33,739 nt of DNA from Candidatus Curtissbacteria bacterium RIFCSPLOWO2_02_FULL_40_11 (GTDB lineage: Bacteria; Patescibacteriota; Microgenomatia; Curtissbacterales; GWA2-41-24). The position numbers were made by a program, and so were the translations under genes. Shown here piece by piece: positions 7,270 to 10,076 of this stretch. Numbering within the stretch: position 1 is the first letter of the stretch; each line of letters starts with the position of its first letter. The notes under the pieces are model-generated. The model was not told the DNA's origin. It was given only the letters and a program-made list of their open reading frames with translations, and did no database searches. The stretch is taken from contig MFBV01000014.1 in assembly GCA_001776505.1 (NCBI GenBank), positions 1-33,739 of the forward strand, written 5' to 3'.

Positions 7270-7509
7270 ATGACCGACGCTAAACAGAAAATTGTAGAAA
7301 AATACTACATCGAAATTACGCCAAGCTGGAAAAAAAGATTTTTAATTTCTTTCGCAGGTGGCATAGGATGGGGACTGGGCGTACTCGTTAGTTCAACCAT
7401 AATAATTGCGATAATTACTTACTTTATTTCAAAAATAGATTTTATTCCTATTTTAGGCCAGTTTCTTAACGACATTACCACTTCTTCTACATCCACACCC
7501 TCCAATTAA
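7270..7509 (+). CDS. Small membrane protein (resembles DUF5665)
   Basis: 79 residues. A short charged N-terminus is followed by two adjoining hydrophobic stretches around a glycine-rich turn (FAGGIGWGLGVLVSSTIIIAI) and then the pattern FIPILGQFL near residue 60. That pattern is what I remember from DUF5665, a family of unknown function in Patescibacteria and Firmicutes. The stop codon shares one base with the thrS start (TAATG at 7507-7511), so the two are probably one transcript with translational coupling. The role is unknown. Confidence 0.7.
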   Translation: MTDAKQKIVEKYYIEITPSWKKRFLISFAGGIGWGLGVLVSSTIIIAIITYFISKIDFIPILGQFLNDITTSSTSTPSN

Positions 7510-8711
7510 TGTTAAAAAATAAATTAAAAGATCATAGGGAAATCGCTCGCGAGATGGATCTTTTTTCATTCCATGAATATGCCCCGGGTGCGATTTTTTG
7601 GCATCCCAAAGGTTTAAAAATTTATCATATTTTAGAAGATTTTATCCGCAAAAAAACTGAAAACGAAGGATACCGGGAAATCTCCACACCGGTTATTGTC
7701 AAAAGCGAACTTTTTAAAAAATCAGGCCACTGGCAACATTTTGGAGAAAATATTTTTAGCCTAAAAGTTGATGACGAAGTGTATGCCCTAAAACCCATGA
7801 ATTGCCCTGAATCTACATTAGTATTTTCTGCACACACACGTAGCTATCAAGACTTACCCCTGAGGCTTAGTGAATTTGGTATTCTACACAGAAACGAGCT
7901 ATCAGGCGTTTTAGGCGGTGCGCTGAGAGTTCGCCAGTTTACCATCGATGATGCTCATATTTATGTTACTCCTGAGCAAATTCATGACGAAATTATAAAG
8001 TTAATTTTAATGACGATTGATGTTTACAAAACTCTGGACTATAAACCCCGCTTCTATTTAGCAACACGCCCAGAAAAGGCTATGGGAAACACGAAAAGCT
8101 GGCAGCAAGCCGAAAAATCACTCGAAAAGGCCCTAAAAAGTACAGGAGTCGATTTTTCTATAAAACCTAAAGAAGGTGCCTTCTATGGACCAAAAATCGA
8201 CATCCATATACTTGATTCACAAAAAAGGGATTGGCAAATGGCAACAATACAACTGGATTTTCAAATTCCGGAAAGTATGCAACTTAGCTACGTTGATAAA
8301 GACGGCGCAAAAAAGCGACCCGTTATGATCCATAGAGGTATTTTTGGCTCTCTCGAAAGATTTATTGGCATACTTATAGAACACACGCAGGGCAAACTTC
8401 CACTATGGCTAACACCCACTCAAACAATTATAATGCCCATTACTAATAAGCAAAACGCCTATGCAAAGAAGGTTGTAACTTCCCTAATAAAAGCGTCGAT
8501 TCGCTCTCAACTTGACGAAAGAAACGAAACTCTCCAGGCAAAAATCCGAGATGCTATCTTGCAAAAAATACCCTACCTAGTTATCGTAGGAGAAAAAGAA
8601 GAAAAGGCTAATTTAATCACAGTCCGAACCAGAGAAGGTAAAAATTTAGAAAAGCAGAAAGTTTCGAGTTTTATTAATAGACTAGTAAAAAAGATTGAAA
8701 ACAAAAGTTAG
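7509..8711 (+). CDS. thrS: Threonyl-tRNA synthetase, short form without TGS and editing domains
   Basis: 400 residues against about 640 for the usual bacterial enzyme. The protein begins at the catalytic domain (DHREIAREMDLF, as at the start of the class II core). It has the zinc ligands C99 (KPMNCP), H150 (DDAHIY) and H275 (VMIHRG), class II motif 2 (FGILHRNELSG), motif 3 (GSLERFIGIL) and the C-terminal anticodon-binding domain (from about residue 300, with RTREGK near the end). The N-terminal TGS domain and the N2 editing domain that removes mis-attached serine are absent. No N-terminal frameshift is visible: the preceding 7270-7509 frame is a distinct membrane protein. It forms Thr-tRNA-Thr and is followed by infC, a common neighbour. 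Confidence 0.95.
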   Translation: MLKNKLKDHREIAREMDLFSFHEYAPGAIFWHPKGLKIYHILEDFIRKKTENEGYREISTPVIVKSELFKKSGHWQHFGENIFSLKVDDEVYALKPMNCPESTLVFSAHTRSYQDLPLRLSEFGILHRNELSGVLGGALRVRQFTIDDAHIYVTPEQIHDEIIKLILMTIDVYKTLDYKPRFYLATRPEKAMGNTKSWQQAEKSLEKALKSTGVDFSIKPKEGAFYGPKIDIHILDSQKRDWQMATIQLDFQIPESMQLSYVDKDGAKKRPVMIHRGIFGSLERFIGILIEHTQGKLPLWLTPTQTIIMPITNKQNAYAKKVVTSLIKASIRSQLDERNETLQAKIRDAILQKIPYLVIVGEKEEKANLITVRTREGKNLEKQKVSSFINRLVKKIENKS

Positions 8712-8755
8712 TTCATGTTAACATCTTCAAACTTAAATTATTCTTTCAAGGAGGT
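8695..8755 (+). promoter_or_regulatory. infC promoter and ribosome-binding site
   Basis: TTGAAA (8695-8700), 18-bp spacer, TAACAT (8719-8724) with TG one base before it. The predicted start near 8731 leaves about 30 nt of leader. AAGGAGGT at 8748-8755 is a near-perfect Shine-Dalgarno sequence whose spacing picks out codon 8761 (GTA). This is one of only two such strong sites noticed in the window. Confidence 0.5.
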
Positions 8756-8760
8756 AGAAG

Positions 8761-9408
8761 GTAGCTAAGCAGTATAGATTAAATCAACAGATAAGAGCAT
8801 CTGAGATTCGCCTAATTGATGATAAAGGCAAACAACTGGGAATAATTCCGCTAACGGAAGCATTTAAAAAAGCCCAAGAAAGTGAACAGGATCTAGTTGA
8901 AATCGCGCCTGATGCCAAACCTCCAGTAGTAAAAATAATCGATTTTAAAAAATTCAAGTATTTAGAAGAAAGGAAAAAGAAAGAAGCCAGAAAAAAAACT
9001 AAAGAAATCGAGCTGAAAGAGATCCGCTTTTCTCCGTTTATTGGGAAGCATGATTTGGAAACAGGATTGAAAAAAGTAAAAAAGTTTCTTTCCGAGGGAG
9101 ATCTTGTTAAAATAAGCATCGTCTTCAAAGGCAGACAAATGGCCCACACTGAGTTTGGGCCTAAACTTTTAGAAAAAATACTATCTGAGTTGGGTGAAAA
9201 CGTTCAAAAGGAAAGAGATTCAAAGTTTCATGGTAGACGCTATGTAACAATAATAAAACCCGTAAAAACCAGCCAAAATAAAAGGGAAACAACAAAAGAT
9301 GAAACTAAAAACAAAAAAGGCAGCAGCGAAAAGGTTCAAAATAACTCCAAAAGGGAAAATCCTCAGGGGTCGCCAGATGAGCTCACACCTAAAAGCAGCA
9401 AAAAGTAA
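8761..9408 (+). CDS. infC: Translation initiation factor IF-3, non-canonical start codon
   Basis: Read from the GTA at 8761 it has 215 residues (family about 180). The N-domain begins YRLNQQIRASEIRLIDD, continues through VEIAPDAKPPVVKIIDF and a lysine-rich linker, and the C-domain contains KEIRFSPFIGKHD and KGRQMAHTEFG. It binds the 30S subunit and checks the start codon and initiator tRNA. The frame is closed by a TAG at 8755-8757 and contains no ATG, GTG, TTG or CTG before the conserved core. AAGGAGGT (8748-8755) fits GTA at 8761; ATA at 8791 is the alternative. Rare start codons are known for infC (AUU in E. coli) and allow IF-3 to limit its own synthesis. The last 48 residues are a Lys/Ser-rich tail, and the gene overlaps rpmI by 110 bp. 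Confidence 0.9.
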   Translation, partial: VAKQYRLNQQIRASEIRLIDDKGKQLGIIPLTEAFKKAQESEQDLVEIAPDAKPPVVKIIDFKKFKYLEERKKKEARKKTKEIELKEIRFSPFIGKHDLETGLKKVKKFLSEGDLVKISIVFKGRQMAHTEFGPKLLEKILSELGENVQKERDSKFHGRRYVTIIKPVKTSQNKRETTKDETKNKKGSSEKVQNNSKRENPQGSPDELTPKSSKK

Positions 9409-9490
9409 AAGCGCAAGAGGGAGATATAAGAGAACAGCGCTAGTTTCACCTTCCCAGAAAAAAAATATAGCCAGGTTATTAGCAAGCTAA
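9299..9490 (+). CDS. rpmI: 50S ribosomal protein bL35
   Basis: 63 residues, the normal size for bL35, very basic. The typical start MKLKTKKAAAKRFKITPKGK and the RGRYKRTALVSPSQKKNIARLL end are present. It is a component of the large ribosomal subunit. The first 110 bp are also read in another frame as the tail of infC, so the two must be translated from the same mRNA, and translation of infC passes through the rpmI start. rplT follows after one base. The infC-rpmI-rplT order is conserved in bacteria, but the overlap is not. Confidence 0.95.
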   Translation: MKLKTKKAAAKRFKITPKGKILRGRQMSSHLKAAKSKSARGRYKRTALVSPSQKKNIARLLAS

Positions 9491-9491
9491 C

Positions 9492-9833
9492 ATGAGAATA
9501 AAAAGAGGTGTTACAACCAGTAAAAGACACAAAAAAATACTTAAAGCCGCAAAGGGGTTCCGCGGAGGCCGCTCCAAGCTTTACAAACAAGCTCGTGAGG
9601 CAACTATCCATGCTGGCGCGGATGCCTACCGCGGTAGAAAAGAAAAAAAAAGACAAATGCGCTCTCTTTGGATCACTAGAATTAATGCAGCTTTAAAAGA
9701 GCACAACATTTCTTATAATCAATTTATAGCCAAACTCAAAAAGAAAAACATTGAACTTGATCGGAAAATTCTCTCACAAATCGCACTCGAAAACCCGGAT
9801 ACCTTCGAGAAGATTGTCAAGAAAGTCATTTAA
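9492..9833 (+). CDS. rplT: 50S ribosomal protein bL20
   Basis: 113 residues. Characteristic MRIKRGVTTSKRHKKILKAA start, then GFRGGRSKLYKQAREA and the RDRRRR-like KEKKRQMRSLWITRINAA segment. It is an early-assembly 23S rRNA-binding protein. In E. coli and Bacillus it also represses the infC-rpmI-rplT operon by binding the mRNA; whether that holds with this altered leader and overlap is unknown. It starts one base after the rpmI stop. Confidence 0.96.
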   Translation: MRIKRGVTTSKRHKKILKAAKGFRGGRSKLYKQAREATIHAGADAYRGRKEKKRQMRSLWITRINAALKEHNISYNQFIAKLKKKNIELDRKILSQIALENPDTFEKIVKKVI

Positions 9834-9863: not shown

Positions 9864-10076
9864 ATGAAGCCTAATGGTTTTATAAGTTTTATAATTATCT
9901 TAATAGCAATAGCCATCCTTGCTCTCCTTTATGTTTTAACAAACAAAATAGCCACAAAAAGTACCCCTGACGAAATTCGAACAATCACAACCCCACAGAG
10001 AATTGAAGAAACTCAAGATGTAGTTAATGAGCTCCAGCAGAAATCAATCGAAAGACAAACAATTGAGATTAAGTAG
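9864..10076 (+). CDS. Small single-pass membrane protein, unknown
   Basis: 70 residues. One N-terminal membrane helix (about residues 6-25, FISFIIILIAIAILALLYVL) is followed by a polar, Thr/Gln/Glu-rich cytoplasmic or external tail predicted helical near the end. No domain is recognised. It sits between the ribosomal-protein operon and pheS on the same strand, and neither neighbour suggests a role. The start is supported by the -10 box at 9852. Confidence 0.5.
   Translation: MKPNGFISFIIILIAIAILALLYVLTNKIATKSTPDEIRTITTPQRIEETQDVVNELQQKSIERQTIEIK

Follow-up and report, generated by a model that had tools for sequence, protein, structure and literature searches.

Probable drift of the infC stop codon through silent positions of rpmI in a Candidatus Curtissbacteria genome

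In Candidatus Curtissbacteria bacterium RIFCSPLOWO2_02_FULL_40_11, the gene for translation initiation factor IF3 (infC) runs 110 nt, out of frame, into the gene for ribosomal protein bL35 (rpmI). The overlap lies in a 33,739-nt stretch of DNA, here called the window, from contig 14 (MFBV01000014.1) of a 938-kb metagenome-assembled genome (GCA_001776505.1) whose nearest relatives are Candidatus Curtissbacteria. The overlap is real but ordinary: the infC stop codon has drifted along silent positions in the gene that follows. Very probably, genome compaction and neutral drift of that stop codon gave rise to the overlap as a by-product. The locus is a natural experiment in which silent positions of one gene set the 3′ end of the gene for an essential translation factor, with no sign of selection.

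The overlap and the origin of the infC stop codon

The features involved, all on the plus strand, are as follows.

8761-9408, plus strand: infC, translation initiation factor IF3, 215 aa (TIGR00168, PF05198, PF00707)
9299-9490, plus strand: rpmI, ribosomal protein bL35, 63 aa, with ATG at 9299 and TAA at 9488-9490 (TIGR00001, PF01632)
9299-9408, plus strand: infC/rpmI overlap of 110 nt, seen in the open reading frames, with rpmI offset by one base relative to infC
9326-9330, plus strand: rpmI Ala10-Lys11 (GCG AA.), where the infC frame reads GAA at 9328-9330; in the relative L011, GCT AA. gives TAA
9406-9408, plus strand: infC stop TAA, whose T is position 3 of rpmI Ser36 (AGT) and whose AA opens Lys37 (AAA)
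9268-9405, plus strand: IF3 tail past the fold, residues 170-215, predicted to be disordered and unalignable among relatives

Both genes are identified by profile matches. The infC product matches TIGR00168 over residues 3-169 (E 1.2e-54, 184.6 bits, with the cut-off at 60) and both IF3 domains, N-terminal (PF05198, E 1.5e-28) and C-terminal (PF00707, E 5.2e-26), while the rpmI product matches TIGR00001 (E 1.3e-15) and PF01632. An earlier reading of the window from its letters alone (the sequence-only reading) had placed the end of infC at 9408 and the start of rpmI at 9299, and these coordinates and the family matches agree. It had also put the end of the IF3 fold near residue 167, followed by a tail of about 48 residues; the fold ends at 167-170, leaving 45-48. 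The rpmI ATG falls on position 2 of the infC codon GAT at 9298-9300, and infC shares 36 codons of its DNA with rpmI.

What sets the end of infC? Inside rpmI, each codon of the infC frame straddles two rpmI codons: its first base is position 3 of one, and its other two bases are positions 1 and 2 of the codon that follows. For a stop in the infC frame, an rpmI codon must thus end in T and be followed by a codon that begins with AA, AG, or GA, so silent third positions of rpmI determine where infC ends. Relatives of the window illustrate this. Their infC stops lie at Thr5 (ACT|AA; L003, junction −17 nt), at Ala9 (GCT|AA; L004, −29), or at rpmI codon 10, which is GCT in L011, GTT in L005, CTT in L007, and AAT in L013 (all −32). 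The window has ACA, GCA, and GCG at rpmI codons 5, 9, and 10, and its infC passes nine possible stop sites before ending at AGT|AA, Ser36. In a tree built from the IF3 core, bL35, and bL20, the window clusters with L003 and L004. One of two explanations offered by the sequence-only reading was loss of the infC stop, and the comparison with relatives that it called for bears this out: the wobble bases of rpmI (GCG at Ala10, against GCT in L011) leave no out-of-frame TAA. To judge from these comparisons, the overrun of infC is the result of silent substitutions that removed stop codons.

These observations suggest a simple sequence of events. In Patescibacteria, infC and rpmI lie close together and infC often has no stop ahead of rpmI; its reading then runs into rpmI, one base off, until a T-ending codon precedes AA, AG, or GA. 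Stops of this type are rare, since bL35 begins with a Lys-rich stretch and no Lys codon has a T in third position, and the wobble choices of rpmI decide where they fall. In the window, nine candidate sites happen to lack a T and the tenth (Ser36, AGT|AAA) terminates infC. The 36 shared codons append to IF3 a tail that is predicted to be disordered and is probably dispensable, and rpmI is probably initiated independently, on an A-rich, unstructured leader. Neutrality of the drift and independent initiation of rpmI are the parts of this account that we infer.

The overlap among relatives

Overlap of infC and rpmI is a frequent arrangement in Patescibacteria. The comparison set comprised 210 distinct loci at which infC and rpmI are both present; Patescibacteria contributed 186 of them, and other phyla, chiefly Campylobacterota, the remaining 24. 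The genes overlap at 80 of the 186 patescibacterial loci (43%), by 1 or 4 nt at 16 of them and by 8-137 nt at the other 64, and at none of the 24 outgroup loci, where the median gap is 127.5 nt. The sequence-only reading had stated that these genes are separated in most bacteria, which is correct for the outgroup and incorrect for Patescibacteria. All 64 long overlaps (at least 8 nt) share the frame of the window's overlap. At 110 nt, the window has the second longest, between those of L163 (137 nt) and L138 (104 nt); L163 and L138 belong to other patescibacterial lineages. Within the Curtissbacteria family, the 12 junctions measure +73, +56, +42, +41, +5, −17, −29, −32 (four loci), and −110 nt, and six loci besides the window carry infC into rpmI in the identical frame. 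At two family loci with wide gaps (L008 and L012), the spacer just upstream of rpmI consists of short repeated AGTTTAAAGTTTA-like units, a sequence pattern that suggests slippage insertions.

The frame preference extends to junctions of 10 nt or less, overlaps included, which split 92:27:9 in favor of the overlap frame; wide junctions split 14:26:18. A bias at close junctions would follow from inheritance of the frame, with substitutions moving the stop along it. From the loci compared, the overlap is a habit of Patescibacteria, ordinary in kind, with only its length in the window unusual.

The same comparison bears on whether an assembly indel near 9262-9300 deleted an infC stop, the finding that, according to the sequence-only reading, would undermine the overlap. 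Stops are indeed present in both remaining frames, at 9263 and 9279, and the assembly is metagenomic, from a genus with no other genome. However, six other family genomes enter rpmI in exactly the window's frame, as do all long overlaps phylum-wide, and the extension beyond the relatives' stops is due to wobble substitutions, with no indel. An assembly error is therefore extremely improbable.

Is the length of the overlap selected?

If a long IF3 tail were advantageous, rpmI genes that are read by infC might be expected to stay open for longer in that frame. They do not. The open length of the overlap frame has a median of 26 nt in patescibacterial rpmI genes not entered by infC and 30 nt in those entered (Mann-Whitney p=0.64), and the frame is open for at least 110 nt in 8% of the non-entered genes and 3% of the entered ones. 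Open-frame length is thus comparable whether or not infC reads rpmI, which argues against selection for a long tail.

Nor do the properties of the tail point to a function. AlphaFold2, run with a 15-sequence alignment, gives a pLDDT of ~90 over most of the IF3 core and below 50 for residues 171-215. Alignment of the tail between family relatives, a check proposed in the sequence-only reading, found no alignable conservation. The model suggests that the tail is disordered. The tail is probably dispensable, and differences in IF3 length across Patescibacteria are no evidence of functional tails.

Could the tail nevertheless be a functional extension of IF3 for which the overlap is maintained? 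There is a precedent in Myxococcus xanthus, whose IF3 has a 66-aa C-terminal extension required for development (PMC2129111), and the recoding result given below also favors this idea. On the other hand, tail length ranges from a few to ~45 residues within one family, the tails do not align, the overlapped part is dictated by bL35 coding, the pLDDT is low, and the open length is the same as at non-overlapping loci. We consider a functional tail very unlikely.

Three points weigh against neutral drift. First, synonymous recoding of rpmI with the codon usage of the window keeps the frame open for at least 110 nt in 1.5% of trials, a weak hint of stop avoidance; we read this rarity as the effect of picking an extreme case among many overlapping loci. 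Second, every long overlap is in the same frame, even though some rpmI genes are open in the other one too. Much of this is explained by lineage inheritance, the counts taking no account of the tree, and by a TGA that 40% of loci have in that other frame, right where rpmI begins. Third, the tail has no close relative that would permit a substitution-rate test.

Is rpmI translationally coupled to infC?

The other explanation in the sequence-only reading was that the overlap couples rpmI to translation of IF3. Ribosomes ending or crossing infC would raise initiation at rpmI, so that L35 and L20 follow IF3. Some features of these loci are in keeping with coupling. Family rpmI genes have little or no Shine-Dalgarno (SD) sequence: the window's has a value of −4.6 kcal/mol with 12-nt spacing, and the value is ~0 at five of the six other overlapping family loci. 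Moreover, the −1 and −4 overlaps typical of coupled pairs occur at the 16 patescibacterial loci mentioned above. Against this, the infC stop lies 107 nt downstream of the rpmI start. Reinitiation drops sharply with spacing and is nearly abolished at ~20 nt (PMC10666635); that work lengthened intergenic distances, and its use for a backward move of 107 nt, far outside the ~20-nt limit, is an extension made here. The RNA around the start of rpmI is unstructured (dG −2.2 kcal/mol, z +1.0), leaving nothing for a ribosome to unfold, rpmI equally has no SD at family loci with gaps of 41-73 nt, and a single family spans junctions of −110 to +73 nt. Hence, coupling is possible but improbable, and the anatomy of the locus does not support it.

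Across the phylum, the SD of rpmI is stronger at overlapping than at widely spaced loci (phylum p=0.0001; class p=0.005), with shuffled sequences differing in the same way. In the window's family, rpmI SD sequences are no stronger than those of shuffles.

A regulatory RNA at the infC/rpmI junction was also considered. Rfam searches of the junction at gathering and relaxed thresholds gave nothing relevant, and the junction folds no better than shuffles; this candidate was rejected.

The start codon and promoter of infC

A point that the sequence-only reading overlooked is that infC has no ATG, GTG, or TTG start. An in-frame TAG lies at 8755-8757, and the first in-frame ATG, GTG, or TTG is at 9055, mid-protein, within the C-terminal domain; the GTA at 8761 is therefore the one plausible start.

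8748-8754, plus strand: SD of infC, AAGGAGG, with a duplex of −10.4 kcal/mol with the anti-SD
8761-8763, plus strand: putative GTA initiation codon of infC, 6 nt after AGGAGG
8695-8724, plus strand: promoter-like site from a consensus scan, TTGAAA-18-TAACAT, with an extended −10 element, TGTTAACAT, at 8716-8724

The 16S 3′ end, GGATCACCTCC, is present in the genome. All 12 family loci have a noncanonical infC start (GTA at eight, GTC at three, ATA at one), 5-8 nt after GGAGG; that of L011 was read by eye, a script having favored another spacing. More widely, no canonical infC start lies near the expected place at 76 of the 186 patescibacterial loci. Automatic SD-based start calls outside the family were noisy, with none returned for 75 of 118 class loci, and were not relied on. 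Gene finders restricted to ATG, GTG, and TTG will mis-start infC in many Patescibacteria genomes. Use of GUA or GUC as an infC initiator was not reported in the literature searched. A 1997 E. coli study by Haggerty and Lovett (cited in PMC9845219) is said to have dealt with IF3 together with a GUA start-codon mutation of recJ.

An extended −10 element of the TGNTAATAT type is kept just upstream of infC across much of the phylum. The motif TGNTANN[A/T]T occurs there at 10 of the 12 family loci (0.6 expected from shuffles), at 44 of 118 class loci (7.3 expected), and at 32 of 56 loci elsewhere in the phylum (3.2 expected). If used, the promoter-like site of the window would give a leader of ~30 nt, into which the Bacillus L20 leader would not fit.

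Neighboring genes

The overlapping pair is flanked by the following genes.

7509-8711, plus strand: thrS, 400 aa (PF00587, PF03129)
9492-9833, plus strand: rplT, ribosomal protein bL20 (PF00453, E 7.2e-43)

The rplT gene begins one base past the rpmI stop, and this pair may well be coupled in translation. Between rplT and pheS is a 70-aa open reading frame (ORF) for a small membrane-like protein (9864-10076) with no Pfam match. The thrS product consists solely of catalytic and anticodon-binding domains and lacks both the TGS and the editing domain; a single tRNA_SAD (editing-type) match elsewhere in the genome (C32:5949-6101) lies inside a 621-codon open frame. The genome also contains another 16S rRNA match (L260, G000:C41:25738-27344), which is partial with respect to the model (9-873) yet spans 1607 bases; it may carry an insertion or sit on a stray contig.

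Comparison with known systems

How does the locus compare with systems already described? The infC-rpmI-rplT operon of E. coli and B. subtilis is under bL20 control (reviewed in PMC10931766). The window has the same gene order, products, and upstream thrS, but it differs in that infC and rpmI leave no space between them and Rfam shows no L20-leader match. The search for an L20-binding leader, both ahead of infC and at its junction with rpmI, gave no Rfam match at gathering or relaxed thresholds and no terminator-like site; a leader of undescribed form is possible. The long extra tail on IF3 is shared with M. xanthus, where it is required for development, whereas that of the window is most likely a by-product of out-of-frame reading of rpmI.

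Long “phase 1” same-strand overlaps in bacteria have been explained by composition, with no selection (Sabath, Graur and Landan 2008, PMC2542354). The window's overlap is of this kind, with two real genes on the same strand, a shift of one base, and a length exceeding the usual 1 or 4 nt. It differs in that the stop of infC is the border that shifts, against a fixed start of rpmI.

Another parallel concerns initiation. IF3 genes start with AUU in E. coli and AUC in Streptomyces, and IF3 thereby limits its own synthesis (PMC5472188). Like these genes, infC in the window combines a strong SD with the absence of a canonical start; its codon is instead GUA, and its relatives use GUA, GUC, or AUA. 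By analogy, these starts fit IF3 autoregulation through a poor start codon. On balance, we favor the view that the Curtissbacteria family moved the IF3 initiator from AUU/AUC/AUA to GUA/GUC with autoregulation kept, the bL20 operator of other bacteria absent, and the infC-rpmI junction drifting freely. The conserved GUA/GUC initiator is a more interesting feature of the locus than the overlap.
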